Below are positions 45,529 to 62,563 of a stretch of DNA of 64,000 nt, in pieces. The translations under genes and the position numbers were made by a program. The stretch is taken from contig NZ_CP100464.1 of assembly GCF_024228675.1 (NCBI RefSeq), positions 62,001 to 126,000 on the forward strand, read 5' to 3'. The stretch is from Salinigranum marinum. GTDB lineage: Archaea; Halobacteriota; Halobacteria; Halobacteriales; Haloferacaceae. The stretch's first letter is position 1; every line of letters begins with the position of its first letter. The notes under the pieces were generated by a model. It saw nothing but the letters and a program-made list of their open reading frames with translations, did no database searches and was not told the DNA's origin.

Positions 45529-47178
45529 CTAACCGCCACCAGCGAAGAATAGCTGTAGAAAGAGCATCCCGACAGCTATGGCGAGGAATACGAACACCAG
45601 TACCCAAGGGTCAGTGAGAACTCGTCTCAACGTCAGCTTGGACTCGGACGACGGAGTCCGGGGTAACGACGCGGAGACTTCATCATCGTCCCTCCGTACA
45701 TCCTCACGCTCGGTGGACGGGCTACTGTTCTCCAGCATCTGGCTTCCATGACCGTCAGCTTCTGTGACTGTCTGCGCGTTCTCGAGAGAGACTGCTGTTT
45801 CTGGGTTGGACATCAGTGCCCCCTCGTCAACAACAGGACGGCCATGGCCGAGTACGCCCTCTACCCCGCACGTCACGCACGCCGCGTTCGGGTGGGTGGT
45901 GACCGAGACCAGTTCGTCGGAACGTCCATCGAAGCGAAGGTAGTCTGCTGGGTGATCGTACTCAGTGACTACCTTCGTCACGGTGCGCGTAATGGCGGAG
46001 GCGACAACACCGTTGAGCGGGGCGATGGCAGGTTGTGGGGCTCGAACGTCAGCGTCGACGTACCCCCGCTGAATCTCCTCCTGGAGCTCGGCGTCGCCGA
46101 GTTGCTCGATCCGCAACTGTTCGGCATCACGGCGACCTAGACAGTCGAAACAGGCGGTCGCACCAGGGGCAACGAGCTGAACCAGGCCCCGTTCTTCGGC
46201 GATGCGATCGTCCGTTCCGTCCGTCTTGATCGCGGTCCCTCCATCGACGTAGGTGAGGAGGTGTCTGACGGCGAACTCGTTGAGGAAGAGACGCGCACCG
46301 AGACTATCGACAGCACCGACCAGCACGCGACAGGACCACAGCTCGGACACAGAGAGGTCCTGAACTCGGCACCGGCGAGTGATGACCTCAATACCAGTGT
46401 CGATCCGTTGGAGGTGGTCACCGACAACGTCTACCTTCGGTCGACCGATGTCTTCCTCATACGCCCCGTAGATGCGGGGGAGATTCGACCGCTCCACGCA
46501 ATCGTGGTCGACCAGCAAGAAGTTGCACACACCAAGCCGCGCGAGTTCGGTTGCGACGACCGAACCGAGCCCACCGAGACCGACGACGGCAATCTTGCTG
46601 TCAGCTAGTCGCTGCTGTCCCTCGAGGGATAGAGCCCTGATCGACCGATCGTACCGTTCCGTGTCGACCGTACTAGTCGGCGCGTCTCTCGTCATGCAGT
46701 CGAGCGGTGGCGAGAGCTTCCAGTCCCCACTGATGGTGACCGGGAGCGGTCGTCGCTCTCCTGCTCCGAAATCTTCGTACACCGCTGTGGCCATCCCATG
46801 GGAGCCAATGACTGCGAAGGCGAGGGTAGATTCGGGGCAGAGCCCACCGAGCCACTCCGCCATGGCGGTCATGATCTCGTCGTCACGTTCGCTGAACTCG
46901 GGATCGCGACTCCAAGGGTGGCTGTGGACCAGAACTGGCACTTGGCCTCTGTTGAGACACTGACCGAGACGGTCGCGCTCGCGCTTGAGCGCTGGGCGAA
47001 CGGCGTCAGCCTCTTGCACGGCACACGCGGCGTCGTCGAAGACGTGCACCGCTCGACCGAGCAAGTCGCCGTTTGCTTGACGTGTGCAGTACAATAGTGC
47101 ACACCGCTCTAGTCTATCGTCACGGATCAGTTCCTCTCGCAGTGTCTGGACTTGGCTCGTGGTGAGTATCAGTTGCAT
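45529..47178 (-). CDS. JAB peptidase-E1 (ThiF) fusion with C-terminal membrane helix
   Basis: A 549-aa protein. Residues 1-155 are a JAB/MPN metallopeptidase: Glu24 and VHSHPWSRDPEFSERDD with H85, H87, S96 and D99 as zinc and catalytic residues. Residues about 175-450 are a ThiF/E1 adenylating domain: YDRSIRALSLEGQQRLADSKIAVVG, LGGLGS, VDHDCVERSNLPR, and two CxxC zinc pairs (CFDC, CVTC). The MoeB-type Cys position appears to read PQPAIAPLNG, without Cys. After an acidic linker a single helix (WVLVFVFLAIAVGMLFLQLF) anchors it in the membrane. It should both activate and deconjugate the ubiquitin-like protein encoded upstream. It is the last gene of a three-gene operon, 21 bases after the E2-like gene. 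Confidence 0.88.
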   Translation of the reverse strand: MQLILTTSQVQTLREELIRDDRLERCALLYCTRQANGDLLGRAVHVFDDAACAVQEADAVRPALKRERDRLGQCLNRGQVPVLVHSHPWSRDPEFSERDDEIMTAMAEWLGGLCPESTLAFAVIGSHGMATAVYEDFGAGERRPLPVTISGDWKLSPPLDCMTRDAPTSTVDTERYDRSIRALSLEGQQRLADSKIAVVGLGGLGSVVATELARLGVCNFLLVDHDCVERSNLPRIYGAYEEDIGRPKVDVVGDHLQRIDTGIEVITRRCRVQDLSVSELWSCRVLVGAVDSLGARLFLNEFAVRHLLTYVDGGTAIKTDGTDDRIAEERGLVQLVAPGATACFDCLGRRDAEQLRIEQLGDAELQEEIQRGYVDADVRAPQPAIAPLNGVVASAITRTVTKVVTEYDHPADYLRFDGRSDELVSVTTHPNAACVTCGVEGVLGHGRPVVDEGALMSNPETAVSLENAQTVTEADGHGSQMLENSSPSTEREDVRRDDDEVSASLPRTPSSESKLTLRRVLTDPWVLVFVFLAIAVGMLFLQLFFAGGG

Positions 47179-47199
47179 AAAAAATTGGGAAGACCGCGC

Positions 47200-47616
47200 T
47201 CAGTCGTGGAGCGGGTTGTTCGAGTGTGGCGATTCAAGCGAAATCTCGAGGATGTCGAGCATCTTCACCAGGTTGTGACGAGACGGGTTCCAGCGAACGT
47301 GATGGATACAGTACTTCGTCCACCGTCGGCCACCGGCCTCAACGGTGTGGTACATCGTGTGAGGTACCTCCCCCCTGAAACGCATGCCAGCGGAGATGTA
47401 CACGTCTGGCTGAGTCCTTGGGTACGTCTCATGCAGGTTGAAGAGTACGTCACCTCGGCGAGAACCATTGGTGTTCTCCCATCCGCGTGGGAACTGGAAC
47501 TGGCCAAGCGTGACGACGGGACTCTTTGTGAGGTCGTACGACAGACTCGCCTGTTGACGGGCCCCGACAGCCGCTTCAAGCGACCGGATGTCTCCGACCG
47601 CACGTGCCCGGTTCAT
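47200..47616 (-). CDS. E2-like ubiquitin-conjugating protein
   Basis: A 138-aa protein with the core E2 order: a strand pair before LHETYPRTQPDVYIS (the E2 YPxxPP-like step), PHTMYH in place of the HPN region, then GGRRWTKYCIHHVRWNPSRHNLVKMLDILEISL. Cys103 is followed at +6 by WNP, as the catalytic Cys of Ubc proteins is followed at +8 by WSP, and then by the usual last helix. This fits the prokaryotic E2 families described from genome comparison. It lies 7 bases after the Ubl gene and 21 before the E1/JAB gene. Assignment is by motif and context; no search was done. Confidence 0.7.
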   Translation of the reverse strand: MNRARAVGDIRSLEAAVGARQQASLSYDLTKSPVVTLGQFQFPRGWENTNGSRRGDVLFNLHETYPRTQPDVYISAGMRFRGEVPHTMYHTVEAGGRRWTKYCIHHVRWNPSRHNLVKMLDILEISLESPHSNNPLHD

Positions 47617-47623
47617 TCACCGT

Positions 47624-47884
47624 TCACCCGAACACGTAAGAGTCCGCGAGCGGCTGCGCTTGGAGTTCAGCTCCCTCGTCGACCTCTGTGGCCACGACGT
47701 CGTCGTCGTTGAGGGCTTCGAACCCCTGGGGTGTGCGGTAGGTCAGGATCTCGTCTTCGCTGAGACCCACTTGGGCCTTCAGGTCGGCGGCTGTCGTATC
47801 GGGACCGGCAGTAACCCGCCTTCCCTCAACGACAACGTCGATGTTCTTTGCCGGTTCATCTTCGAACAGTTCTCCGAGGCTCAT
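47624..47884 (-). CDS. Ubiquitin-like beta-grasp protein
   Basis: An 86-aa protein from ATG 47884; a GTG at 47920 and an ATG at 47974 are possible earlier starts with a Pro/Ser-rich extension. The core reads NIDVVVEGRRVTAG, TTAADLKAQVGLSEDEIL, TYRTPQGFEALNDDDVV and EVDEGAELQAQ, the strand-strand-helix-strand-strand order of ubiquitin. The chain ends SYVFG with a single C-terminal glycine. This terminus would be adenylated by the E1 domain and passed to the E2-like protein. It is the first gene of the operon. The fold call rests on pattern and context. Confidence 0.65.
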   Translation of the reverse strand: MSLGELFEDEPAKNIDVVVEGRRVTAGPDTTAADLKAQVGLSEDEILTYRTPQGFEALNDDDVVATEVDEGAELQAQPLADSYVFG

Positions 47885-48138
47885 GTTTGGGCTCGTTGGT
47901 GCGGACGTTGATTCGGCCACCCGATCAGGTGGAATCGGGAACGGGCCGGAGGGAATCAGAACCAGTGTCCGCATTGACTGGTCTCGTCTTGATCCCCACC
48001 ACACGCTTCGGCCGGGATTGTGGAGTAGTCTTCTTCGAAGCTGTTCAAAGTACCTACTAAGAGGAAGTTGGTTTATCACGGGTTGTTCGAACGGATTCGA
48101 AGAAAATGCTATTCAAAAAGAACACCACATGGATACTG

Positions 48139-49965: not shown

Positions 49966-50661
49966 TTAAACCTCGGGCATATAAGACGGGCGCTCAGCGT
50001 ACGGAATCGGGTCTTCAACACCTGCTCTCTCGAATGCCTGGAGTCGGAACGCACAGGAATCACAGGTCCCACACGCTGGTTCCTCTTCTCGGTAGCACGA
50101 CCACGTGTGTTCGTACGGGACGCCGAGTTCGAGTCCACGTTCGGCGATATCTGTCTTCGACCACTCGACGAACGGTGCCTCTAAGCTGATCTCGGTCTCT
50201 GGTTTCGTTCCGACGTCGATCACCTGCTGGAACGCCTCAAAGAACGCCGGTCGACAGTCAGGGTACCCGGAGAAGTCTTCCGAGTGTGCTCCGATGAAGA
50301 TCGCCGATGCATCCTGTGCTTCGGCGTAGGACGTTGCCATCGAGAGCAGGTTCGCGTTCCGGAACGGCACATACGACGTCGGGATTTCGTCACTTTCCAT
50401 ATCTGCGTCTTCGACCTCAATCTCGTCATCGGTGAGGGACGACGCACCGATACGAGCGAGGTGTTCCGTCTCGACGTGGAGGAAATCTTTGGCATCGACG
50501 ACCTCGGCGAGTTTCTGTGCACACTCGAACTCCTTTGTCTCCGTGCGTTGGCCGTACGAGGTATGTATGAACAGGGGGTCATACCCTCGCTCCATCGCTT
50601 CGTAGACTGCTGTTGCGCTGTCCATTCCGCCGGATACCAGAATTACTGCGTTGTCGTTCAT
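49966..50661 (-). CDS. queC: QueC, 7-cyano-7-deazaguanine (preQ0) synthase
   Basis: A 231-aa protein from ATG 50661, which overlaps the folE stop (ATGA). The PP-loop is VSGGMDSATA at residues 9-18; SYGQRTETKEF, YVPFRNANLLSMA and IGAHSEDFSGYPDCRPAFFEAFQQ are QueC hallmarks; and four Cys of the zinc site are in WSCYREEEPACGTCDSCAFR. QueC makes preQ0 from 7-carboxy-7-deazaguanine with ATP and ammonia. It is the last gene of the folE-queD-queE set. Haloarchaea use preQ0 for archaeosine in tRNA; this set, beside DpdA, more likely feeds DNA modification. Confidence 0.95.
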   Translation of the reverse strand: MNDNAVILVSGGMDSATAVYEAMERGYDPLFIHTSYGQRTETKEFECAQKLAEVVDAKDFLHVETEHLARIGASSLTDDEIEVEDADMESDEIPTSYVPFRNANLLSMATSYAEAQDASAIFIGAHSEDFSGYPDCRPAFFEAFQQVIDVGTKPETEISLEAPFVEWSKTDIAERGLELGVPYEHTWSCYREEEPACGTCDSCAFRLQAFERAGVEDPIPYAERPSYMPEV

Positions 50662-51269
50662 GATCTCGTGTTCTTGTCTATCGCTCGCTCGAACTGCCGT
50701 TTCACCGCGTCCGTGACCTGACCCTCGACCGCCCGGGTCGTCGTCTCCGTTGCCCGTTCGACACCGCGCATCGCCTCGCACAAATGCGTCGCCGTCAGTT
50801 CAACGATGACGCCCGTCGCCCCGATTTCTGTTCGGAGCCCTTCAGCGATGTCTCGCGTCAACGATTCTTGCATCGTTAGTCGTCGGGACTGCCAGCGGAT
50901 GTACCGTGGAAGCTTCGAAAGTCCGACGACCGCTCCATTGGGAACGTACGCAACGTGTGCAGTACCGTAATACGGTAATAGGTGGTGTTCGCAGAGGCTA
51001 TACACTGGGATACCTGTCTTGATGACTGTACTGGTATCCTCACTCGGAAAGGTCCGCATGGTCGGTTTTGCGACCTCGCGATGGCCCTCGGTCAGCGTCT
51101 CGAACGCTTGTGGGACTCGACGCTGCCACGTGTCCTGGAGATGCTCTTGATCGGAGTCAGCGCCAACTGCCTCCAACAGGAGTCGTGTTCCTTCCTGTGC
51201 TTTCTCCCAATCGATTTCACTGAACGATTCGGAAGTCGATTGGAGTTCCCCATTAGTATCTCCTGGCAT
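50658..51269 (-). CDS. folE: GTP cyclohydrolase I (FolE)
   Basis: A 203-aa protein from ATG 51269; a longer frame reaches 51365 but would overlap queE. Family motifs are clear: PVYSLCEHHLLPYYGTAHVAYVP with zinc-binding Cys and His, GLSKLPRYIRWQSRRLTMQE, and THLCEAMRG with the second Cys. The reaction makes 7,8-dihydroneopterin triphosphate from GTP, the first step to preQ0. It sits between queE (2 bases) and queC (overlap). Most archaea use the unrelated MptA or FolE2 type for this step, so the presence of type I here is noteworthy and would fit transfer of the whole set. Confidence 0.93.
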   Translation of the reverse strand: MPGDTNGELQSTSESFSEIDWEKAQEGTRLLLEAVGADSDQEHLQDTWQRRVPQAFETLTEGHREVAKPTMRTFPSEDTSTVIKTGIPVYSLCEHHLLPYYGTAHVAYVPNGAVVGLSKLPRYIRWQSRRLTMQESLTRDIAEGLRTEIGATGVIVELTATHLCEAMRGVERATETTTRAVEGQVTDAVKRQFERAIDKNTRS

Positions 51270-51271
51270 GA

Positions 51272-52057
51272 TTAGGTTCCTGGGGCGTCGTTCCAGAGAT
51301 CGACGTGCAGACGTGGCGTGTACCGGTAGCCGTGCTCCAGAGCCAGTTCTGCAGTAATCTCGCACGTCTCTTCGAGACGCTCACGGGTCATCCCTTCAGG
51401 CATGAGGAGGATGTCGTGATTCTCGATTTGAGCACTGCTCGTGGACCGAAGTGTCTCAACGAGTTCTTCGATTTCTTGCATGTCCTCTCGCCCGGTCACC
51501 ACGAACTTCAGCTGGAAGTCGTATGCCTCGACCAGTGAGGCGAGCGAGTCGTAGTCGAGACGGTCTTGCTCGTGACGCTCCTCCCACACACCGACGTCAG
51601 CGTTGCCGCCAGCCGGTGGTTGTGCTTCACTCGGTGTCGATGACGCGAGTTTCGGACTGACCGAAACGAGGTCGATCGGTGCCTTACGGAAAATCGTTCC
51701 GTTCGTTTCGACCGTCGTGTGATAGCCTTGATCGGACAGGTTGGTGAGTAACGATTCGATGCCGTCGTGCATCATGGGCTCGCCACCTGTCACGACGACG
51801 TGGTCGCTTTCGTGCTTGGTTACCTCGGTGACAATATCCGTCACATCGAACCAGCCGTGCGTCGGCTCCCACGAGGTGTGATACGAATCGCAGAACCAGC
51901 ATCTAAGGTTGCAGCCGGAGGTGCGAACGAACGTGCTTGGGACACCTGCGAGTTTGCCCTCTCCCTGGAGTGAGTGGAACAGTTCGTTGATTGGAAGAGC
52001 ATCGTTGCCGGCCTCTGCGGGAGAATCAAGCGCTCTCGCGTCTGCATTGACGGGCAT
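51272..52057 (-). CDS. queE: QueE, 7-carboxy-7-deazaguanine synthase (radical SAM)
   Basis: A 261-aa protein. The LFHSLQGEGKLAGVPSTFVRTSGCNLRCWFCDS segment has the CxxxCxxC cluster motif, followed by the cis motif VVVTGGEPMMH, TVETNGTIFR and VSVSPKLAS, the QueE set. It turns 6-carboxy-tetrahydropterin into 7-carboxy-7-deazaguanine. The insertion ASSTPSEAQPPAGGNADVGVWEER after the substrate loop is long but common in haloarchaea, as far as I recall. It lies 5 bases after queD. Confidence 0.93.
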   Translation of the reverse strand: MPVNADARALDSPAEAGNDALPINELFHSLQGEGKLAGVPSTFVRTSGCNLRCWFCDSYHTSWEPTHGWFDVTDIVTEVTKHESDHVVVTGGEPMMHDGIESLLTNLSDQGYHTTVETNGTIFRKAPIDLVSVSPKLASSTPSEAQPPAGGNADVGVWEERHEQDRLDYDSLASLVEAYDFQLKFVVTGREDMQEIEELVETLRSTSSAQIENHDILLMPEGMTRERLEETCEITAELALEHGYRYTPRLHVDLWNDAPGT

Positions 52058-52062
52058 ATGGA

Positions 52063-52527
52063 TTAGAAGCCCGAACAGAGTTCGCTCGTTTCAGCCACCG
52101 CTACAGACACGTCCGAGATGGTGTCGGGAAGGAGCTCCAGCATCCGATTTTCGAGCACCACTGCCATCACCTCCGCTGTCGGTGGGTGGTCGAGCACGAC
52201 GACGGCGTCTCCGTCACCTGACTGGTCGAACGCCTCGATGAGTGGGTCGCCTCTCTCCAGGAGGAACCGGTGATCCCACTCATCTATTATCGAGGTAATA
52301 TCGCCCTTGTCAACGACCCACCCCTCCTCAGTCAGGCTGCCAGTGACTGAGACCGTGACCTCGTAGTTGTGGCCGTGCGGTCGTGAACACTTCCCGTCGT
52401 GATGGAGGAGGCGGTGACCCGAACTGATACGAATCGGACGGTCACGCCCGACGTGGAGTGTCCGCTCTCCAGCGTTAGAGAGCGCCGACCGATCTGTCTC
52501 GTCTTCTTGCAGTACACCCTGAGTCAT
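52063..52527 (-). CDS. queD: QueD, 6-carboxy-tetrahydropterin synthase
   Basis: A 154-aa protein. SSGHRLLHHDGKCSRPHGHNYEVTV contains the zinc His residues and catalytic Cys; DKGDITSIIDEWDHRFLLERGDP gives the catalytic Asp-His pair; PPTAEVMAVVLENRM and AVAETSELCSGF complete the family. QueD makes 6-carboxy-tetrahydropterin from dihydroneopterin triphosphate. It is the first of four genes, queD-queE-folE-queC, that encode the whole preQ0 route. The operon promoter should be in the gap up to 52616 or before the small gene there. Confidence 0.93.
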   Translation of the reverse strand: MTQGVLQEDETDRSALSNAGERTLHVGRDRPIRISSGHRLLHHDGKCSRPHGHNYEVTVSVTGSLTEEGWVVDKGDITSIIDEWDHRFLLERGDPLIEAFDQSGDGDAVVVLDHPPTAEVMAVVLENRMLELLPDTISDVSVAVAETSELCSGF

Positions 52528-52615
52528 ACCCGGGTATTATCCAGGTACTACTAAAGCGATGTGCCTTGGACTGAAAGTGAAATCCGTCTCGAGAACCGGT
52601 ACGGGAGCAGTTCGG

Positions 52616-52891
52616 TCACTCTGACTGACAGCGAACCGGACCGGAATTCCCTTCTTGCTTGTCGGCTGTGACTTCACACCGGAAGTAGTCCCCATTCGGG
52701 TAGATGAGAAATCGGTCCTCGTCGTCGTTCTCGATACGCTCTACCCCCGTGATAGACCAGTCTGCATCTTCGATACCATACCACGTGTAGTATTCCGACT
52801 CACCTGCGACGGCGAAATCGAGCGTACCCGTTCCACTTCCGAGGATGTGTTCAACTCGTTCGAGCACGACGTCGTCGGCGATCACTGGCAT
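52616..52891 (-). CDS. Small hypothetical protein upstream of queD
   Basis: A 91-aa protein from ATG 52891; an alternative start nine codons earlier is at 52918. It reads MPVIADDVVLERVEHIL, LDFAVAGESEYYTWYGIEDADWSITGVERIENDDEDRFLIYPNGDYFRC. The chain looks like a small beta barrel and is acidic in the haloarchaeal manner. It is divergent from the dpdA gene (start 53000). No family is known to me. It is on the same strand as and 88 bases before queD and may be part of the operon. Confidence 0.55.
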   Translation of the reverse strand: MPVIADDVVLERVEHILGSGTGTLDFAVAGESEYYTWYGIEDADWSITGVERIENDDEDRFLIYPNGDYFRCEVTADKQEGNSGPVRCQSE

Positions 52892-52999
52892 AGTACGAGA
52901 TGCCTCGCCTTCGTACATAAACCTGGAGACCAGTTTCGCTCTGGTTTGAGAGGATTCATTACCCAGAACGATTTACCACGTGTCGGTGACTATCTACCT

Positions 53000-55219
53000 G
53001 TGAGGTTCTACGTGCCCGAGTGGGATGATCGGGTCGATGCCGATTACGACTTCCTGCACGACGAGCACTCGACGCTCGGGACTGACGAGCGCGACCTTGC
53101 GTACATTTGGGACCTTTTCGATCGACAGACGACCCCGATCGACGGTGTGCTCCTCTCCCGAGAACAGGCCGAAGAAAGCGCAACGAAAGCAGAGCGCTTG
53201 ACCGAGAACGGGATCTATAACGCTCCGAAACTCGATATTCCGACATGGCTGCCGACGATCAGTGATTGCGGTGCGTGGGGATACAAATCGCTCCCGTTCC
53301 CTCCCTACGACAACGCCGAGATGCTTGATTTCTACGAGCAACTCGGTGTGACGACCGGTGTCACGATCGATCACCTCGTGCTCGGCGCTGGCCACACTGC
53401 ACGGCTATACCTGAATAAGCGGGCGTTCAGTGGTGAGTTCAGTAAATCGGATTTGCAAGCCGAGTTGACGGATGCGGTCGACGTGATGGTCGATACCTGG
53501 CCGAACGGGGACCAGAGTTCGGCTCGAACGTGGCCGTCGTACGTCGAGTCTGAAGAACCCTCCATCTACGGCGTAACTGACGTCCACCCGTTCACCGAGG
53601 ACGACTTCGCAGGGGATGTCGATGCGATCCTCGACCGCCTTCGTGACGACCCGAGGGCAGTCTACCGGGACGACGATATGCAGTATCGGTACGATCTGAC
53701 GCTCCGAAACGCTCGAGACATGGCCGAGCGCTACGAGGCAGGCGACTACTCGTTCCGTCTAATGGCGGCCGTCCAAGGATGGGATCCGGAATCGTACGTC
53801 GAAGCGACGAAAGAGGTCTTGAACCTCGGGTATCAATACGTCGGTATCGGCGGCGTTGCGGGGAGTCGCGAGGAAGACGTCGAAGAGATCGTTACAGCAA
53901 TCGGAAACGAAATCAAGACCTTCGAACGAGAGCTGGGGACCCGCGTCGATACACACGTCTTCGGGTTCGCCAAGACCGGTGCCTTCGAGACGATCGGTCG
54001 GACTGGGATGACGAGTTTCGACAGCGCGAGTATGCTCCGCGCCGCGTGGACTGGTGGGCAGAACTATCATCTCGACAGCGACGACCGATACGACGCCGTT
54101 CGCGTCCGATATCCGACTCACCGTGATGATCTCCCGACGAGTATTCAGAAAGCACTCCGCGGACAGGAGATGCTCTATGCGCTCCGGGCGTTCGGTCGCA
54201 ACGAATCTATCGCCGACGCGCTCTGGACGTGGTACGACCGTGCGGAACAGGCACTGGCGGGTATCGAACCGTATCTCCGTGAACATCGACACGACGATCG
54301 CTTCGATGTCCCCTACATTCAGGACACAGAGGAGGCATTCCGCTCGGGATACGAACACGGACGGGCATTCAGAGCGAGTTTCGGAGATCCGCTGAGTACG
54401 AAACTGGTCAAACTGCTCCGAGACGACGATCCGGAGGATCCGATTGCGTTTGCCGAGTACGAGGACCACCTTCGGACTGCCACTGATATCTTCGAGGACT
54501 GGACGCCGACCCGCGTTGAGGACATCACAAACCGGGAGACGGATGCGGTCGGGACATTAGAAGCTCTCTGGCCGCTCGTCGAAGCGTATGCCACGTGGCC
54601 CCCGATCGACGACGGTGACCTCCTCGACGAGTACCGGGAACTGCTCAACGCACGGCCATGGGAGCGGTGTGACTGTCCTATCTGCGAAGAGTTCGGGATC
54701 GAGGTCGCGATATTCCGTGGGAACAATCGGAACCGACGTCGTGGATTCCACAACACACGGCGATTCTACGACCAGTTCGAGCGAGAGCTCCCGAAACTAC
54801 TCGTCGTGACGCGTCCGTCGACCTCACTAATGGGTGCTGGAACTGTCGAAGACTACCTCCGAGATGATCGACCTGCGTTCTGGAACGCAGTTCATGACCT
54901 TCCAGTCGCAGAAATCGGGACGATGACCGCAAATGGGTTCCACGAATGGTGGGCCGACAGGCCTGGAATCGTCTCCTTCGAACCCGGTCGACTGGCCGAC
55001 GAACTCATCTCTGCGGGAGAACGGTATCAAGACGTATTCATCGACGGCCGACACTGGACTCCCGATGAATCGGTTCGCGAGCGACTCGCGGAGGTGGACT
55101 GCACCTTGCACGTGTGTGATGAACCGAGCGAGCTTCGATCCAGTGTACTGAACCGACTCAGATACGGGGAACAGTTTCTTCCCCAGTATCTCGTTCAATC
55201 GGGATTGACGGAGTACTGA
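53000..55219 (+). CDS. dpdA: DpdA, TGT-like DNA base-exchange enzyme
   Basis: A 739-aa protein from GTG 53000, chosen because MRFYVPEWDDRVDADYDFLHDEH is the typical DpdA beginning and a GGTGA lies upstream; a longer frame would overlap the divergent small gene. The TGT-fold residues are SDCGAWGY (88-95) with catalytic Asp, FPPYDNAEMLDFYEQLGV, GYQYVGIGGVAGS, HVFGFAKTG and SFDSASML with the nucleophile Asp. Zinc ligands are C557, C559, C562 and H584 (CDCPIC, then HN), the TGT pattern CxCxxCx21H. DpdA exchanges guanine in DNA for preQ0. The preQ0 operon is divergent from it, and the DUF6884 gene follows 3 bases on. Confidence 0.87.
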   Translation: MRFYVPEWDDRVDADYDFLHDEHSTLGTDERDLAYIWDLFDRQTTPIDGVLLSREQAEESATKAERLTENGIYNAPKLDIPTWLPTISDCGAWGYKSLPFPPYDNAEMLDFYEQLGVTTGVTIDHLVLGAGHTARLYLNKRAFSGEFSKSDLQAELTDAVDVMVDTWPNGDQSSARTWPSYVESEEPSIYGVTDVHPFTEDDFAGDVDAILDRLRDDPRAVYRDDDMQYRYDLTLRNARDMAERYEAGDYSFRLMAAVQGWDPESYVEATKEVLNLGYQYVGIGGVAGSREEDVEEIVTAIGNEIKTFERELGTRVDTHVFGFAKTGAFETIGRTGMTSFDSASMLRAAWTGGQNYHLDSDDRYDAVRVRYPTHRDDLPTSIQKALRGQEMLYALRAFGRNESIADALWTWYDRAEQALAGIEPYLREHRHDDRFDVPYIQDTEEAFRSGYEHGRAFRASFGDPLSTKLVKLLRDDDPEDPIAFAEYEDHLRTATDIFEDWTPTRVEDITNRETDAVGTLEALWPLVEAYATWPPIDDGDLLDEYRELLNARPWERCDCPICEEFGIEVAIFRGNNRNRRRGFHNTRRFYDQFERELPKLLVVTRPSTSLMGAGTVEDYLRDDRPAFWNAVHDLPVAEIGTMTANGFHEWWADRPGIVSFEPGRLADELISAGERYQDVFIDGRHWTPDESVRERLAEVDCTLHVCDEPSELRSSVLNRLRYGEQFLPQYLVQSGLTEY

Positions 55220-55222
55220 CTG

Positions 55223-55930
55223 ATGCGATTTCTTATTATCGACCAGTGTTCTGGAAGCAAGGAGGTACCCAACAACGCATCGGAGTTCAGTGCCGCTGAC
55301 ATCGATGAACACGGTCGAGAAGGATTGCTTGCTCGCGACGGGGTCCCAGCGATTCCAGCGAGACAACTGTATACGGGACGTCAGCAAGGGTACATCGACT
55401 CGGCTGTCGACCGACTTCGAGCCGCGGGAGACACTGTCGACCGGTTGTACATCAGTGCTGGCTTCGGTTTAGTCGATGAGGAAACTGAACTACCCCCCTA
55501 CAACGTGACGTTCGCTGGGATGAACTCGTCCGCTATCGACGAACGAGCGACTCGACTGGGGATTCCAGCTGACGTTCGAGAGGCCGTGCAAGCAACCCCC
55601 CCGTATGACATCGTCGTCTTGGCACTCGGGAGTGACTACTATCGTGCCTGTGCTGTCGAGAGTGTGCTTGATGCGATTCCATCTGAGACTCTTGGAGTCA
55701 TTTTCAATCAGGAAGCACTTGCAACCGAGAGGGAACACATTGTCTCAATTCCCGCCAGGACAACCGAGGCGAAGGAACATGGTGCGATTGTCGTTGCATT
55801 AAAAGGGAAATTTCTCCAGAACTTGGCCGATCATCGAAGCAGAGGGGCAGCTATGGAGAAACTGTCGGATCTCGTCGAATACTGTACGACAGAACCGACG
55901 ACACAAACAGGACTCAGCGAATACGACTAG
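55223..55930 (+). CDS. DUF6884/YaaA-like protein, DpdC candidate
   Basis: A 235-aa protein. Near the start DQCSGSKE, then PARQLYTGRQQGYIDSAV, YISAGFGLVDEETELPPYNVTFAGM and VVLALGSDYYRAC follow the DUF6884/YaaA-like order. In bacterial dpd clusters the DpdC protein, from the YaaA/DUF328 superfamily, processes preQ0 in DNA to a further 7-deazaguanine. The position three bases behind dpdA fits such a role, but this protein could instead do another step or only bind DNA. The C-terminal 40 residues are helical. Confidence 0.72.
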   Translation: MRFLIIDQCSGSKEVPNNASEFSAADIDEHGREGLLARDGVPAIPARQLYTGRQQGYIDSAVDRLRAAGDTVDRLYISAGFGLVDEETELPPYNVTFAGMNSSAIDERATRLGIPADVREAVQATPPYDIVVLALGSDYYRACAVESVLDAIPSETLGVIFNQEALATEREHIVSIPARTTEAKEHGAIVVALKGKFLQNLADHRSRGAAMEKLSDLVEYCTTEPTTQTGLSEYD

Positions 55931-56066
55931 GCGACTTGGGTACAATCCCAAGGTAGCGATTGTGTTCCAGATCGGTCGTCGGATAGAATCGTTTTACAGA
56001 TACGACCAATTTGCCATATAGTCTTAAGGACAGTTGTTAAGACAATCGGCCCTAAATTCAGTGCAA

Positions 56067-56549
56067 ATGACAGCTAATGTCTTTTTGGTGCCGTGCGACC
56101 CGGGGAATTTCGATCGAACAGTCCTCTCGCAAGTAAATCTGACTGAGATTTCGAAGACCCCGGACCCGATTGCTGATCTGACTTCGGTACGATTCTGGGG
56201 AGCGAGGGACGGTGAGCGGAATAAGAATTATTTTGAAAAGATGAACCGCGGTGATCTTGTGCTGTTCTATCAAGATGGAGCGTACGTTGGCATCGGGAAC
56301 GTTGGACGAACATTTGTGGACGAGGAGAAGTGGGCTAGTACGACATTCTGGCAGAATGCGCCGTCAAAACTTATATACACTATTGAAGAGTTCACTGAAT
56401 TATCTATTCCACGGGGTGCAGTAAATCGCCTGTTTGATTACGGACCGGACTACTATCCGCAGGGACTGACACGGGTTGCTGATAACCGCGTCTCGAATAC
56501 AGTGAGAACGATTCGCCGTGCGCTAGAGATGTATAATGAGAAGCACTAA
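56067..56549 (+). CDS. EVE/PUA-like modified-base-binding candidate
   Basis: A 160-aa protein from ATG 56067. It has VFLVPCDPGNFDRTVL, VRFWGARDGERNKNYFEKMNRGDLVLFYQDGAYVGIGNVGRTF, then FWQNAPSKLIYTIEEF and the tail LFDYGPDYYPQGLTRVADNRV. The GDLVLFYQDGAYVGIGNV hairpin is the EVE/PUA-type pattern. EVE domains bind modified cytosine or similar bases and often feed a nuclease. This one is stand-alone. A place within a DNA-modification island suggests that it senses modified or unmodified DNA. The next gene downstream is a convergent GIY-YIG protein. Confidence 0.62.
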   Translation: MTANVFLVPCDPGNFDRTVLSQVNLTEISKTPDPIADLTSVRFWGARDGERNKNYFEKMNRGDLVLFYQDGAYVGIGNVGRTFVDEEKWASTTFWQNAPSKLIYTIEEFTELSIPRGAVNRLFDYGPDYYPQGLTRVADNRVSNTVRTIRRALEMYNEKH

Positions 56550-56586: not shown

Positions 56587-57333
56587 TTACTCGAAATCAC
56601 TCAGGTCCGATTGGTCGCTTAACCCTCGTAAGTGGGCGAATGCTTCTGGGTTATAAGGGAGTCCATCTGTGTTCAGCAGTATTTCTGGAAATAGTTCCCA
56701 AGTCAAGGCGATAAGCTGAAGCTCCAATTCTTCCAGAAATGGAGAGGCTCCCGTGCCCGGTGTGTATGGGCCAACACCGCCGACTTCCCAAGCTTTCATC
56801 CAAAGGTAGACTTCCTGGTTGAGACGACGGGATTTCGGCTCAAACAAAGTTCGTATCCATCGCCCCTTCGACGTATTTGTCACACTTCCATATGATTCCC
56901 AGGATGAATTGAAATATATCTGACTTAGTTCACCTAAATGAAATGCGGTTCCATACCCCCATCTCGCAAACCGAGACTTTCGATCCCGAACGGACTTCAG
57001 ATTCGGATTGAGTTTGTACCCATTAGACTCAAACTTCCCCGATTTCCCAATGTACAGAGGAGTTACATCTGCATTTGAATCGATCCAGTACATCACATAA
57101 ATGACCCCTTCGTAGCGTCGTCCTCGTTCGTGGAAGTCGCTTTCAACCTTCTCTGCCTCATCAATTACCAGTTGTTCCACCTCCCCACTCCGCTTGAGAA
57201 CGTCACGTTCATGTGAACCAGTACCAAATCGCTCTGTCTGGACAACAAGGTCTGAATTGGTTTCGAAGAGAGGAACACTATTATCAAACTCGTGGATATC
57301 AACCCACTGTTCCCAGACCTCAGCTTTACTCAT
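56587..57333 (-). CDS. GIY-YIG nuclease-like protein
   Basis: A 248-aa protein. Residues 76-100 contain GVIYVMYWI (GIY-like), then PLYIGKSGKF (YIG), with the usual spacing, followed by SRFARWGYGTAFHLGELS around 120-138 with the Arg expected on the next helix. The acidic residue in LNQEVYLWMKAWE could be the catalytic Glu. The first 70 residues are a unique helical part. The gene is on the opposite strand from its neighbours and lies between the DNA-modification genes. It may be a restriction nuclease that spares 7-deazaguanine DNA or attacks foreign modified DNA. Confidence 0.6.
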   Translation of the reverse strand: MSKAEVWEQWVDIHEFDNSVPLFETNSDLVVQTERFGTGSHERDVLKRSGEVEQLVIDEAEKVESDFHERGRRYEGVIYVMYWIDSNADVTPLYIGKSGKFESNGYKLNPNLKSVRDRKSRFARWGYGTAFHLGELSQIYFNSSWESYGSVTNTSKGRWIRTLFEPKSRRLNQEVYLWMKAWEVGGVGPYTPGTGASPFLEELELQLIALTWELFPEILLNTDGLPYNPEAFAHLRGLSDQSDLSDFE

Positions 57334-57566: not shown

Positions 57567-58601
57567 ATGTTGTACCGACAACGAACACTCGACACTCCCC
57601 ACGGACCCTTGGAAACACCGGTTCTGTTTCCCGTGCGGAACATCGGGAAGCGGTCGAGTGACAACACCCCAGAGTACGCCGACAGTATCCCAGACCTCCG
57701 GACTGCGATGGTCAATGCCCGGTCAATCCGGCAACGCGACCCTCAGTGGGACCGTTTGCGGGCGGGCGCGACCCTCCGAGAAGAGATGGGGGTCCCGAGT
57801 AATACCATTCTCTTCGCGGACAGCGGAGGCTTTGACTTCCATGCCGCAACTGTCGATACCACCCCAGCACGAACCTTAGAAACCCAAAACCAACTCGACG
57901 CAGACATCTACGGAACAGTTGATCTGCCTCTCTCGCGAGAGAATCGTGCCGCTAAGAATCAACGTCGAATCGAACAGAGTACCAGATTCGCGATCGAAGC
58001 GAGCGACACACACGATGGGGACGCACTTCTCTTCGCGAGTGTCCATGGCTACGACCCAGAAACAGTCGGTAATGTGGTGCGCTATCTGGAGCGTCACGGC
58101 GACTTCGATGGGTATGCCCTCGGCAGTATGGTCCCGATTCGGACGGATTACGAGAAAGTAACTAAGCTGATACTTGCTGCCAGACGGGCGACTGACAAAC
58201 ACCTCCACGTATACGGGCTAGGAGGGATCGTTTATCAGCCACTATTACTATATCTTGGAGTCGACAGTTTCGACTCCTCAGCTTTTATCCGAAGCGCAGG
58301 AAATCGGAATTATCTCGTACCTGGATTCGGTGGTACGGAATTACACCAAATCGAGGAGTTAGAGCACCTCCCTTGCTCATGTCCGGTCTGTTGGTCCCGG
58401 TCACTCTCGACGATACGGGAGAATCGAGACCTCTTGACCGAACATAACCTCTGGTCACTGGTTACCGAACTCCGCAGATTCCGGTATATGGCGGCGAGTG
58501 GGGAAGACATCGAGTCGTATCTTGATCTTCGATTCAGCGGGAACGAAGTGACCCAGCGGGCGTACCGAATTGCCAAACAGCAAGTCCGGAGGCTCACATG
58601 A
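57567..58601 (+). CDS. Second TGT-fold enzyme, short form
   Basis: A 344-aa protein. It has DTPHGPLETPVLFPV at the start, LFADSGGFDFH (D85), TVDLPLSREN, ALGSMVPIRTDYEKV, HVYGLGG and LGVDSFDSSAF with the nucleophile Asp, then zinc ligands C270, C272, C275 and H293 (CSCPVC...H). These are the residues of TgtA/bTGT-like enzymes, while the length is shorter than archaeal TgtA, which has a PUA domain. The gene overlaps the wHTH gene after it (ATGA). Its partner genes and the absence of a PUA domain favour a DNA rather than a tRNA substrate; not proven. Confidence 0.8.
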   Translation: MLYRQRTLDTPHGPLETPVLFPVRNIGKRSSDNTPEYADSIPDLRTAMVNARSIRQRDPQWDRLRAGATLREEMGVPSNTILFADSGGFDFHAATVDTTPARTLETQNQLDADIYGTVDLPLSRENRAAKNQRRIEQSTRFAIEASDTHDGDALLFASVHGYDPETVGNVVRYLERHGDFDGYALGSMVPIRTDYEKVTKLILAARRATDKHLHVYGLGGIVYQPLLLYLGVDSFDSSAFIRSAGNRNYLVPGFGGTELHQIEELEHLPCSCPVCWSRSLSTIRENRDLLTEHNLWSLVTELRRFRYMAASGEDIESYLDLRFSGNEVTQRAYRIAKQQVRRLT

Positions 58602-59500
58602 GTGAGCGACCGACGGTGCGACCGGTGACCCTCGCCAGACTCGTCGAGGTGACGCACGTCTGCGAGGGTGCGAGTCACACGACAGTCGAAATCGAAGAAA
58701 ACCTCGACGTGAGCCATCGGCGAGCACGAGAGACCATCCTCGAAGCACTCCGAATCGGACTCCTTGGCGAGTACGATCCCGATGATGAGGACGAATCTGC
58801 GTGGTATATGACCACATCAGTCGGGATTGAGTTCCTGACTGCGGTGCGCGCCGAGGATTGGTCGCGGGTAAGTAGGATCCTCGAAACCCGGAGTCGCCAC
58901 TATAAGGCTCTCTTGAGAACGCTGGAAGCGACCGCACCTGCTGATCTCGACACGGTCCTTGAGGAACTAGAAACCCGAGAGGAACACACGGGTAGATCGT
59001 ACAATCAGACGAGTATCGAGGTACTCGGTGACTGGGCCGAGAGACTCGGGCGCGTCCAACGTAACGCGTTCACCGGATCGTACTATCCCGTCGAGCGGGG
59101 AAATTCTTCGGCGAACTTTCCGCATGTCCTGCTGTCGGTGTTCGACGATCTCGAACAGACTGCTGGAGTCTCACTCCGCCAGCGATATCTGTCGATTCCA
59201 AAACTCCGGGAGCACTTCTGTGAGCGCGTCGGTTGCCCGCGTCGGGCGTTCGACCAGGCGCTTCTGGCATTGGCGCAACAGAACGTCGGCAAGGTGGAAC
59301 TGTCGGGTGCCCCCTTCGATACCGGCGCGAAGGACGCAGCCCTCGGGATCAAAGAGATGACACTGGCCGAGAGCGGCGGCTTGGTTTCGACCTCACAGTC
59401 GACTGAGCAGGTGATGGCCGGTGTGGAACAGTTCGGCAAACAGTACTACTACCTCGCGATTCACGAGCGCGATCTCGTGTACACCACAGACGATGACTGA
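58598..59500 (+). CDS. wHTH protein of the TGT operon (DpdG-like?)
   Basis: A 300-aa protein. The N-terminal 75 residues form a winged helix (TLARLVEVTHVCEGASHTTVEIEENLDVSHRRARETILEALRIGLL). A second HTH-like unit lies near residue 205 (IPKLREHFCERVGCPRRAFDQALLALAQQNVGKVELS). It overlaps both neighbours by a few bases: TGT before and ATPase after. Bacterial dpd clusters contain proteins of this type and size (DpdG), but whether this is a true homologue needs a profile search. It may recruit the exchange enzyme or act with the ATPase. Confidence 0.5.
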   Translation: MSERPTVRPVTLARLVEVTHVCEGASHTTVEIEENLDVSHRRARETILEALRIGLLGEYDPDDEDESAWYMTTSVGIEFLTAVRAEDWSRVSRILETRSRHYKALLRTLEATAPADLDTVLEELETREEHTGRSYNQTSIEVLGDWAERLGRVQRNAFTGSYYPVERGNSSANFPHVLLSVFDDLEQTAGVSLRQRYLSIPKLREHFCERVGCPRRAFDQALLALAQQNVGKVELSGAPFDTGAKDAALGIKEMTLAESGGLVSTSQSTEQVMAGVEQFGKQYYYLAIHERDLVYTTDDD

Positions 59501-60659
59501 AACACCTTTCACAATCACGGATGAACCGCGCGATTACTCCCAGTTCGGACTCGAAGTGAACCCGTTCCCGTACAGTCCGGTTCCGGACGACGATCCCGAG
59601 CTGTACTGTGGACAGGAGCACGCCACCCGGGCGATCAGTGATACCGTTTCGACGATGCTGAGCACGGGTAAGTCGAAACACCTCGTCATCACTGGAAAGT
59701 ACGGCAACGGAAAGTCACACACGCTCAAGTACACCCGGTCGCTGGTCCGCGACCGCGACGATGTCGTCGTCGGGTACGTCGCCCAACCCGGAGAAGGGTT
59801 CCGTGACATCTACCACGAGTTCATGTACGACCTCGGGTTCGACCGGGTGCAGACACTTGCGTACGAGTTCTTGACCGTCGTCACACGAGACGTGACTGAG
59901 GAGGAACCGAGCGACGCCAAGGATACCAGACGACTCATCGACGACGGTGAAGTCCTACTCTCTGAACTCGTGCCGACCGCGATTCAGCGGTTGAACGACG
60001 TCACGAAGTTCGCGGACTTCTCTCGAGCGATCGTCCATATGATCTACGAAGACACCAATCTCTACTCGTGGCAGTGGCTCACCGCCGAAGGAATCCGATA
60101 CGAGCAACGCAAAGAGATGGAGATTCACAGCGCGTTAGACGACGACACCTCGAGCGTCCGTGCGTTCACTGCACTGAAGAACCTTCTTCTGGAGTTGGGC
60201 TATACGGGCGTCTTCGTCTTCGTCGACGAGTTCGAGAGCATCGCGCGACTATCGCCGAAAGACGAGCAGACGACGCTGAACAGTATCCGCCATCTCATGG
60301 ATCAGAACAGCCACGGGTTGTGTATCCTGTTTGGGTGTGCTCCTGAGGTATGGCAAGACGTAATGAGCGAGTACCACGCCTTTTCCGAGCGGATCGGTCA
60401 GGAGGTGGCACTTCGACCGTTGACCGACGAGCACATCGTCAATCTCGTCTCTTCGTATCTGGACTCAGCTAGGTCGGACAGTGGCGCTGGTATCGACCCG
60501 TTCGAGAGGGAGTGTCTCCAATTGATCCATCAGCGGTCTCAAGGAAACGTCCGCCAGGCCATTTCGTTGTGTAGTCGAGTCTTGGACGCGGCTGTAGATG
60601 ACGGTAAAGCGACAGTGGAGGGAGAGTACGTCCAAAACGTCTTGACAAATGGAGAGTGA
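59493..60659 (+). CDS. AAA+/ORC-like ATPase of the TGT operon
   Basis: A 388-aa protein from ATG 59493, overlapping the previous gene by eight bases (ATGACTGA). After YSQFGLEVNPFPYSPVPDDDP, as in ORC/TniB/ExeA-type ATPases, comes Walker A TGKYGNGKSHTLKYT near residue 70, Walker B VFVFVDEFESIARL near 250 and a C-terminal RSQGNVRQAISLC sensor 2. BREX BrxC/BrxD and DpdH-type ATPases share this look. It might regulate modification or restriction by sensing DNA. It ends the three-gene operon. Confidence 0.7.
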   Translation: MTETPFTITDEPRDYSQFGLEVNPFPYSPVPDDDPELYCGQEHATRAISDTVSTMLSTGKSKHLVITGKYGNGKSHTLKYTRSLVRDRDDVVVGYVAQPGEGFRDIYHEFMYDLGFDRVQTLAYEFLTVVTRDVTEEEPSDAKDTRRLIDDGEVLLSELVPTAIQRLNDVTKFADFSRAIVHMIYEDTNLYSWQWLTAEGIRYEQRKEMEIHSALDDDTSSVRAFTALKNLLLELGYTGVFVFVDEFESIARLSPKDEQTTLNSIRHLMDQNSHGLCILFGCAPEVWQDVMSEYHAFSERIGQEVALRPLTDEHIVNLVSSYLDSARSDSGAGIDPFERECLQLIHQRSQGNVRQAISLCSRVLDAAVDDGKATVEGEYVQNVLTNGE

Positions 60660-60715: not shown

Positions 60716-61750
60716 ATGAGAGACTCGTGCCGACTGTTCTTAGCCGCCTGCAGCCGGGACAATAAGAAAATCCCGTATCAAAACTTCAAACGGTCAGTAC
60801 TGCAGGGCGTCTCCCCAAAAGACCATCCCTTGGTAGAGGAACTCGGATACACGCGACCAGTATCTGTGTGGGGCATTGCGAAGAGTTTCGAGTCAAATCA
60901 CTCGGCGTTAACCGAAGGTCAGGACTACGTTCTCTTCTACACGAAGAAGCGAATATACACCCACGCCGCTCGACTCCACAAGAAGGCTATAAGCGACGAT
61001 CTGGCTCGTGACGTGTGGGAGCGAAAAGACGAACGGCAGCTTAATAGGGACCCTGAGGAAGAGCGGTCGCTTCTTATGTTCTTCACCGACGTCTTCCGTG
61101 TAGACATTCCAGCCCCTGACCTCCACAAACTCTTGAACTATGACATCGATTATCTGCTGGGCGGCAGCAAGATGCCACGGGAATCTCGGCTGGCGGGTCT
61201 CCGTTCGAAATTCGGATCGGTACCGGCATACGTCGAGAGTTTCCGGAACGGTCCTCGTCGCGAATCGCCAACCAGTGTTGAGGCTCGGGTCGTCGAACTG
61301 TTAGAGCAAACGATCTCAGATCCGGAACTATCTACTGACGAACCACAGCGTTCCAAGCGAGAGGAGATCATCCGTTCCCAGGCGTTCCGAAAGGCAACAC
61401 GCTCCGCGTACGACGAAGCCTGTGCAATGTGTGGTTCGTCACGGATGTCACCTCATGGAACTCCTGAGGTCGAAGCAGCCCACATTTACCCGAAAGGAAC
61501 GGGAGGACCTGATATCGTCCAGAACGGGGTAGCACTGTGTAAGCTTCACCACTGGGCGTTCGACCGCGGCTGGATTGCGCTTTCGGACGATTATACTACC
61601 ACGGTTCGTGATGCGCCTAACTTTTCAGGTTATCATGAGTTCAAGCAGATGGAAGGAACGCAGATTTCTCTCCCCGAACCGCACTTACAGCCCCATACTG
61701 CGTTCCTTAAAGCACATCGGCAGTTCCATGGTTTCGAAGACTCATCCTGA
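60716..61750 (+). CDS. HNH endonuclease with N-terminal EVE/PUA-like domain
   Basis: A 344-aa protein. Residues about 230-300 are a typical HNH nuclease: CAMCGSS at Cys236, EVEAAHIYPKG with H256, then QNGVALCKLHHWAFDRGWIAL with Asn, zinc Cys and catalytic His278. Residues about 1-180 look like a single PUA/EVE-type fold: SVWGIAKSFESNHSALTEGQDYVLFYTKKRIYTHAARLHKKA. This reader-plus-cutter layout is known in type IV restriction enzymes that bind modified bases. Within a deazaguanine DNA-modification cluster it might cut DNA without the mark, or with foreign marks. Confidence 0.75.
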   Translation: MRDSCRLFLAACSRDNKKIPYQNFKRSVLQGVSPKDHPLVEELGYTRPVSVWGIAKSFESNHSALTEGQDYVLFYTKKRIYTHAARLHKKAISDDLARDVWERKDERQLNRDPEEERSLLMFFTDVFRVDIPAPDLHKLLNYDIDYLLGGSKMPRESRLAGLRSKFGSVPAYVESFRNGPRRESPTSVEARVVELLEQTISDPELSTDEPQRSKREEIIRSQAFRKATRSAYDEACAMCGSSRMSPHGTPEVEAAHIYPKGTGGPDIVQNGVALCKLHHWAFDRGWIALSDDYTTTVRDAPNFSGYHEFKQMEGTQISLPEPHLQPHTAFLKAHRQFHGFEDSS

Positions 61751-61874: not shown

Positions 61875-62531
61875 TCAACTGAGCCGTGACCGCTCCCATG
61901 TTTTTAAAAACAACCTCCCACTATCGGACACTGAAACTGCCTTCGACCGACCGTCCTTGGCAGTCGATACGAACCCTTCGCTCTCGAGACTACTGACGTG
62001 CCGGGCTATCGTGCTCTTCGAACGATCCAGTTCGGTGGCTATCTGACTGATCGACAGCGGCAATCGGAACTCGTTCAGATCTGCAAGTAGACCTGCCTCA
62101 GCGTCCGAAACGCTTCCACGCAGGGTCAACTTGGGGATTTGACGAACACTGCTATCGATATCACCGACTTGCAAAATTGTGTCGACGTAGTCGGCGCTGG
62201 CGAACGTCGCAACGGTCAACGGAAGGAGCAGCTCGCGAGCGCCGCCACCAAGAATGATAATCGTCTCCGCTTCCGCTACCTGTATGAGATCGATACAGTA
62301 CAACGTTGTCTCGACGAAGTCCGAGTACGGCAGGGTTTCGGACACCAGTTCGAGGTCGGGAACGACCTGCGTCAGGACATCCTTGACCTCTTCGTACGCG
62401 TCTTCTCCCCTCTCCGAACCGGTGGCAGGTTGAAGAAGAACGACCCGATCCTCCTCATCGAGGCCCTCGCTCAGAACTGGCCGCACGACGCGGCGACTGT
62501 CGAAGCCAAGGGGGGCTAGGTAGGTGCGCAT
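61875..62531 (-). CDS. CARF-wHTH regulator (Csa3-like)
   Basis: A 218-aa protein from ATG 62531; a start seven codons earlier is possible. The N-terminal 130 residues fit a CARF Rossmann-like domain: MRTYLAPLGFDSRRVVRPVLSEGLDEEDRVVLLQP at the start and IIILGGGARELLLPLTVATF. A winged helix follows (LPLSISQIATELDRSKSTIARHVSSLESEGFV). Csa3 proteins bind cyclic oligoadenylate and control CRISPR genes, yet there is no cas gene or CRISPR array in the window. It may control the neighbouring modification island instead. Repeats at 62564-62681, upstream of its start, may be its binding sites. Confidence 0.78.
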   Translation of the reverse strand: MRTYLAPLGFDSRRVVRPVLSEGLDEEDRVVLLQPATGSERGEDAYEEVKDVLTQVVPDLELVSETLPYSDFVETTLYCIDLIQVAEAETIIILGGGARELLLPLTVATFASADYVDTILQVGDIDSSVRQIPKLTLRGSVSDAEAGLLADLNEFRLPLSISQIATELDRSKSTIARHVSSLESEGFVSTAKDGRSKAVSVSDSGRLFLKTWERSRLS

Positions 62532-62563
62532 GTCTGGGAGAACGCGTCTCATTGACCCTTATT

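Follow-up and report, generated by a model that had tools for sequence, protein, structure and literature searches.

There are reports of 7-deazaguanines in the DNA of bacteria, of phages and of archaeal viruses (PMC13329287), and archaeal viruses provided with both DpdA and 7-deazaguanines are known (PMC8651126, PMC6884629). As regards cellular archaea, a class of systems named BRIGADE was defined by helicase phylogeny in a preprint (Bell et al. 2025, PMC12458937), whose main text describes it as exclusive to halophilic archaea and as composed of a Dpd-like 7-deazaguanine cluster, two YprA helicases and a nuclease of either the phospholipase D (PLD) or the PD-(D/E)xK type; Type II is characterised by two ARMADA-like helicases, and the class is presented as still to be characterised. 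The same main text does not mention a tRNA-guanine transglycosylase (TGT) or transglycosylase, the status of DpdB, an SspB-like protein or a BrxC/D-type ATPase. The locus analysed here lies in a 64,000-nucleotide stretch of a Salinigranum marinum contig (hereinafter the window), which corresponds to bases 62001-126000 of contig C4; this contig has a length of 145,366 bases, and the haloarchaeal genome amounts to 4.9 Mb. It is very probably a plasmid-borne restriction-modification system of the Dpd superfamily, belonging to the BRIGADE class (Type II-like). The class has already been predicted as BRIGADE; the new element with respect to the preprint main text is a modification core that lacks DpdB and harbors two transglycosylases, in which a second transglycosylase (TGT2), a winged-helix protein (WH300) and an ATPase (ATP388) probably stand in place of DpdB, together with the existence of non-haloarchaeal relatives and of bacterial loci with two TGTs.

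The locus resembles BRIGADE in its 7-deazaguanine cluster (queC, folE, queE, queD and dpdA), in the presence of two YprA-family helicases and of a PLD nuclease, and in its halophilic archaeal host. Since both helicases score highest to the DruE models, and lower to DpdJ, the locus fits Type II, and the same affinity of the scores suggests that both helicases are ARMADA-like. Differences can also be observed. The two helicases are 36% identical over 1883 columns, whereas the preprint main text refers to those of Type II as "nearly identical", an expression that may concern their architecture; moreover, while BRIGADE is described there as exclusive to halophilic archaea, a related TGT2/WH300/ATPase module and DpdA are also found outside haloarchaea.

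The bacterial Dpd system (dpdA-K, as in Salmonella Montevideo) shares with the locus DpdA, DpdC (DUF6884), preQ0 genes in the vicinity, a DpdH-like ATPase, a YprA-family helicase and a PLD nuclease. However, the haloarchaeal locus has no DpdB, being provided instead with a second TGT, a winged-helix protein and a BrxC/D-type ATPase, and it differs also in its two helicases, in a CARF regulator and in its archaeal host. A large survey of dpd clusters was restricted to bacteria and demanded both dpdA and dpdB (PMC11888242), so that an archaeal form without DpdB would escape it; in the main text of a survey of archaeal immunity (PMC12988326), dpd is not mentioned. The BREX-related capture (BRC) systems (PMC12839542) also combine a TGT, a BREX-type ATPase and a multi-winged-helix DNA-binding protein, but they possess PglZ, DUF6079 and HerA/FtsK and are devoid of DpdB and DpdC, whereas DpdC is present here and neither the PglZ nor the HerA family was found among the scanned proteins of the cluster. 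A likeness to the phosphorothioate modification system SspABCD is limited to the predicted fold of WH300, which resembles SspB; the modifying enzymes of the locus are instead transglycosylases, and no sequence match to SspB was found. Lastly, TGT2 has in common with the archaeal tRNA TGT (TgtA) the catalytic domain, the catalytic Asp residues and the zinc site, but it forms a separate clade, does not possess the C-terminal part and has, in haloarchaea, His160 in place of Gln.

DpdA and the DpdC-like protein

The dpdA gene (53000-55219, forward strand, GTG start) encodes a DNA-guanine transglycosylase of 739 aa that scores 278 bits to the NCBIfam equivalog NF041059 (cut-off 200) and aligns (1.4e-38) with the solved DNA-guanine transglycosylase 7UI4 of the Protein Data Bank (PDB); three stretches hold both catalytic Asp motifs (SDCGA and SFDSA) and the zinc site (CDCPIC-x21-H). 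In the phylogenetic tree, the protein clusters with the bacterial DpdA sequences, apart from the tRNA enzymes. An earlier note on this DNA, based on the letters and their open reading frames, had described a DpdA with TGT catalytic residues and a CxCxxCx21H zinc site, followed by a DUF6884 protein: both Asp motifs do align to 7UI4, the zinc site is exact (C557-x-C559-xx-C562-x21-H584) and the DUF6884 gene is indeed the next one, at 55223-55930. An alternative form of 854 aa, beginning at the first in-frame start, was rejected; the start is probably GTG 53000, since the relatives begin there and an upstream extension is opposed by the gene of a small conserved protein, P100 (100 aa, 52616-52918, reverse strand), which runs in the opposite direction to dpdA and whose copies occur at 42-62% identity near dpdA in many relatives. 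The search of GenBank phages for DpdA yielded a single weak match.

The DpdC-like protein (235 aa, 55223-55930, forward strand) matches the PADLOC DpdC model (2.5e-10), and DUF6884, the domain named as that of DpdC in the GATOR-GC paper (PMC11888242), was recognised in all the 27 members of its alignment. The predicted model (predicted local distance difference test, pLDDT, 90) has E. coli YaaA (DUF328) as its sole strong fold match (Z 9.9 over 183 residues, the next being 7.7), and a sequence search of solved structures with the DpdC profile gave no significant match. The distribution of these genes was searched in 392 genomes of the order, belonging to 96 genera, and 30 haloarchaeal loci were mapped; in 11 of the latter, DpdA and DpdC are fused, and the fusion has the reverse order (DpdC-DpdA) in cyanobacterial and Paenibacillus loci. 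The DpdC-like protein is predicted to convert dPreQ0 to dADG, the form carrying 7-amido-7-deazaguanine.

A second preQ0 supply on a probable plasmid

On the reverse strand, divergently from dpdA, four genes (49966-52527) are arranged in a compact operon with intergenic spacings of -4, +2 and +5 bp. They are queC (49966-50661), whose 231-aa product is the synthase of preQ0 (7-cyano-7-deazaguanine; PF06508 1.8e-73, above the TIGR00364 cut-off, SGGMDS motif); folE (50658-51269), encoding a GTP cyclohydrolase IA of 203 aa (PF01227 6.2e-51) with the metal-site motifs CEHH and HLCEAMRG; queE (51272-52057), recognised by the Radical_SAM and QueE models and retaining the radical-SAM cysteines; and queD (52063-52527), encoding a 6-carboxytetrahydropterin synthase of 154 aa (PF01242, PTPS, 3.7e-20) with a CSRPHGH motif. 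The tight queD-queE-folE-queC operon divergent from dpdA that the earlier note had recognised is thus borne out by strong family matches. Homologues with the same layout occur in dozens of genomes, so the arrangement is not due to chance.

The same note had taken these genes for a second set that supplies DNA modification locally, a reading at odds with the four being the sole copies on which tRNA archaeosine depends. The chromosome does contain its own queD-E-C set (C1:953554-955545) and a GTP cyclohydrolase of the GCHY-1 type (C1:3836718), and the plasmid genes are therefore not the sole preQ0 source of the cell. The genome also encodes TgtA and an ArcS-like protein (the latter picked up with the TGT model), and the possibility that the plasmid preQ0 genes are the only genomic copies was accordingly rejected. 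The QueE proteins of the two sets are 63% identical, and in a genome-wide search the plasmid FolE is the sole match of the PF01227 family. Of the 30 haloarchaeal loci, 13 have queC/D/E genes in the vicinity of DpdA within the stretches read, and two further ones have queD alone.

The location on a plasmid, also claimed beforehand, is likely: the contig is 145 kb long, encodes a ParA-family ATPase and has a guanine-plus-cytosine content of 57.4% versus about 70% for a single chromosomal stretch of 8 kb. The ends of contig C4 were searched for an overlap as a sign of circularity, and none was found.

A second transglycosylase and the absence of DpdB

Downstream of dpdC, three genes of the same strand overlap by 4 and 8 bp. 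The first one (57567-58601) encodes TGT2, a second transglycosylase of 344 aa (PF01702 1.1e-29), which reaches 132 bits to the TgtA model TIGR00432, far below its cut-off of 350, and which aligns (5.9e-19) with PDB 1IQ8 only over the catalytic domain of this 582-residue archaeal enzyme, lacking the C-terminal part of the archaeal tRNA TGT; its catalytic and zinc residues are invariant. In the tree, TGT2 constitutes a distinct clade (support 100/98), separate from both TgtA and DpdA, while some other branches are long. That TGT2 might be a copy of TgtA or DpdA was rejected on the basis of this tree, in which the branches of E. coli Tgt and of the Paenibacillus TGT are long. In haloarchaea, position 160 of TGT2, which we take to be the equivalent of Gln203 of the bacterial TGT, is occupied by His, whereas TgtA has Gln; at this position, His is also found in 7UI4 and in the two members of another haloarchaeal TGT pair (see below), and Gln in the haloarchaeal DpdA. 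No confirmed relative of TGT2 was found in the viral contigs searched, and the GenBank phages yielded weak TGT matches only.

The second gene (58598-59500) encodes the 300-aa WH300, which belongs to no sequence family and whose predicted model (pLDDT 81) consists of winged helices; the comparison of this model with SspB (6JUF) gave a probability of 1.00, a TMq of 0.41 and a Z of 10.7 over 161 residues. The third one (59493-60659) encodes ATP388, an AAA ATPase of the BrxC/BrxD type (388 aa, PF10923 7e-18) that exhibits a Walker A motif (GKYGNGKS) and the VDEFE motif. Sequence searches of the solved structures with either protein disclosed nothing significant.

No match to the DndB family (PF14072), to which DpdB belongs, was detected in the whole genome. 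Bacterial DpdB is reported to give an ATPase activity for insertion and to be dispensable in some clusters (PMC12839542). Since DpdB supplies an ATPase in bacteria and the genome has no DndB-family DpdB, ATP388 together with WH300 probably plays the DpdB role, and the TGT2-WH300-ATP388 operon as a whole would probably take the place of DpdB. A more specific idea, put forward tentatively and somewhat more likely to be wrong than right, is that the three proteins represent a second, previously undescribed base-exchange machine replacing DpdB, in which two DNA transglycosylases of unlike origin might cooperate (on the two strands, on half-sites or as a heterodimer), while the SspB-like protein and the BREX-type ATPase might open the DNA.

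Distribution and co-occurrence

Of the 392 genomes, 53 have DpdA, 52 TGT2 and 54 WH300, and each of the three is spread over 37 of the 96 genera. DpdA and TGT2 occur together in 51 of the 54 genomes that have either one, with a Fisher value of 2e-60 that, like the others given here, ignores the shared ancestry of the genomes and so overstates the evidence; TGT2 and WH300 occur together in 52 of 54 genomes, WH300 being present wherever TGT2 is. The five proteins DpdA, DpdC, TGT2, WH300 and ATP388 are all present in each of the 30 mapped loci, even if in a few of them the TGT2-WH300-ATPase block is inverted or located several kb away. Given that the core is spread over many genera, chance is not a tenable explanation. 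P288, with which the restriction half begins, was detected in 37 of the 392 genomes, and all the 37 carry genes of the modification core (Fisher 4e-38).

Five non-haloarchaeal genomes of the phylum also harbor TGT2 followed by WH300, at 31-44% identity, with ATP388 next in four of them; in three of the five, DpdA is located on the same stretch, 17-24 kb from TGT2/WH300. Among the genomes scanned by name, the carriers include many culturable haloarchaea, such as Haloferax gibbonsii, Haloarcula vallismortis and a number of Halorubrum. Haloferax alexandrinus BNX82 (plasmid pBNX82-4) and Haloarcula sinaiiensis ATCC 33800 are likewise carriers that can be cultured.

Other loci with two transglycosylases

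Plasmid pART37 of Paenibacillus sp. 37 (L143:11411-30948) contains, in a row, queE-queD-queC, a VUT-family transporter, a DpdC-DpdA fusion, a second TGT, a DpdH-like ATPase, DpdJ and DpdK, and no gene of this locus is annotated as DpdB. Two cyanobacterial plasmids (L140:1074-9403 and L141:9933-18450) carry a DpdC-DpdA fusion and a second TGT between two DEAD/DEAH helicases; this second TGT has lost the cysteines of the zinc site. Another haloarchaeal pair (L176:6383-11725 in G033 and L177:8286-13627 in G149) consists of TGTs of about 670 and 413-437 aa accompanied by an HSP90-like ATPase and a DUF6884/DpdC-like protein, followed in G033 by a DpdH-like ATPase; it is possibly a second DNA-modification system with two TGTs. 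The second TGTs do not form one clade in the tree, so that the recruitment of a second TGT seems to have happened repeatedly, and it is this recurrence that most strongly hints at the importance of the second enzyme.

The putative restriction half and the accessory genes

The putative restriction arm begins with P288 (62979-63845, forward strand), which belongs to no known family, and with P312 (63842-64000, forward strand), whose gene is cut by the window end. It then runs beyond the window up to C4:143709, and comprises the remainder of P312, a DpdH-like ATPase (C4:126777, with a weak DpdH match of 2.8e-6), P284, two YprA/DruE-like helicases of 1842 and 1818 aa (C4:130728 and C4:136287) with a Cys motif of the DUF1998 type, and, beside them, a PLD nuclease of 657 aa (ending at C4:143709; PLDc_2 1.2e-6) devoid of a DpdK match. 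DpdD, E, F, G and I were not seen among the scanned proteins of the cluster. Upstream of P288, on the reverse strand, a Csa3-type regulator of 225 aa (61875-62552) combines CARF and helix-turn-helix (HTH) domains (PF22662 7.6e-14, plus HTH families); it adjoins the restriction half in the relatives too, and no CRISPR genes are present in the cluster. This might place the arm under the control of a nucleotide signal.

Three further genes are intercalated. An accessory EVE-domain protein of 171 aa (56034-56549, forward strand; PF01878 2.9e-4, just below the cut-off) was not found in the remaining mapped loci, and a 248-aa protein without Pfam match (56587-57333, reverse strand) is shared with one mapped relative (G324, 76%). 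The third gene (60716-61750, forward strand) encodes an accessory HNH nuclease of 344 aa (HNH_2; NF045808 3.4e-23, below the cut-off) related to a family of restriction enzymes of phosphorothioated DNA and absent from the other mapped loci. The EVE protein and the HNH nuclease could read modified bases, or might be unrelated insertions. On the other side, shortly upstream of the preQ0 genes, a reverse-strand operon (45529-48079) encodes a fusion of JAB with E1 (ThiF), a protein resembling E2 and a small one that may be ubiquitin-like; the PADLOC E1-E2 models match, and the operon corresponds to a ubiquitin-like conjugation system of the defence type.

Proposed mechanism and alternative explanations

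On the basis of these gene identities, the following scheme can be proposed. FolE, QueD, QueE and QueC would produce preQ0 locally from GTP, and DpdA would exchange guanine of DNA for it; the DpdC-like protein, often fused to DpdA, would then probably turn the preQ0 base into 7-amido-7-deazaguanine (ADG), so that the mark on the host DNA would most likely be preQ0 or ADG. WH300 might grip or open the DNA and ATP388 might provide the ATP-dependent step, while TGT2 might modify a second site or strand, or act as a partner of DpdA. The CARF-regulated arm (P288, P312, the DpdH-like ATPase, P284, the two YprA helicases and the PLD nuclease) would attack DNA devoid of the mark. The earlier note had read the locus as a gene set for 7-deazaguanine modification of DNA; this part is supported by the position of DpdA in the tree, by its homology to 7UI4 and by the linkage to DpdC and to the restriction half, but the reading was incomplete, as it did not include the second TGT, the absence of DpdB, the large restriction arm past the window and the BRIGADE precedent.

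Besides the inflated Fisher values, some observations weigh against the restriction-modification system proposed here. TGT2 is nearest in sequence to the archaeal tRNA TGT and not to DpdA; the resemblance of WH300 to SspB is structural only and obtained with a moderate model, of which one winged helix fits MarR-type regulators at a slightly higher Z; at some loci, the effector arm is missing or altered; and the 7-deazaguanine in the host DNA is predicted from the genes.

Two other explanations have to be considered. According to the first one, the DNA would be modified for anti-restriction protection or for plasmid maintenance, in a phage-like fashion, and the helicase and PLD genes would be a separate, adjoining defence system. 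Phages do resist restriction via 7-deazaguanines (PMC6884629), another defence-like operon is located directly upstream, and no P288 match exists in 17 of the 53 DpdA genomes; yet P288 never occurs without genes of the core, several relatives in which P288 is absent from the stretch read maintain a YprA-type helicase or PLD near DpdA, and the dpd clusters of bacteria combine these two halves as well (PMC11888242), which makes this explanation improbable. The second one, i.e., that the transglycosylases and the preQ0 genes are a plasmid-borne second pathway for tRNA archaeosine or another RNA and do not modify DNA, can draw on the closeness of TGT2 to the archaeal tRNA TGT among the solved structures and on its match to the TgtA model, but it is extremely improbable in view of the TgtA, ArcS-like protein and preQ0 genes already on the chromosome, of an alignment restricted to the catalytic domain of the archaeal enzyme, of a DpdA that is an equivalog of the DNA enzyme and of a cluster running into helicases and a PLD nuclease.

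Under the reading of the locus as a Dpd-type restriction-modification system, some archaea whose own preQ0 synthesis already serves their tRNAs nevertheless maintain a further, distinct supply next to DNA-modifying genes. The module does without DpdB and retains two transglycosylases wherever it is found, thus posing a clear mechanistic question, and the locus is directly testable, since it is carried by culturable haloarchaea. If the prediction is true, 7-deazaguanine in the DNA of a cellular archaeon would be, as far as the literature consulted shows, the first case.
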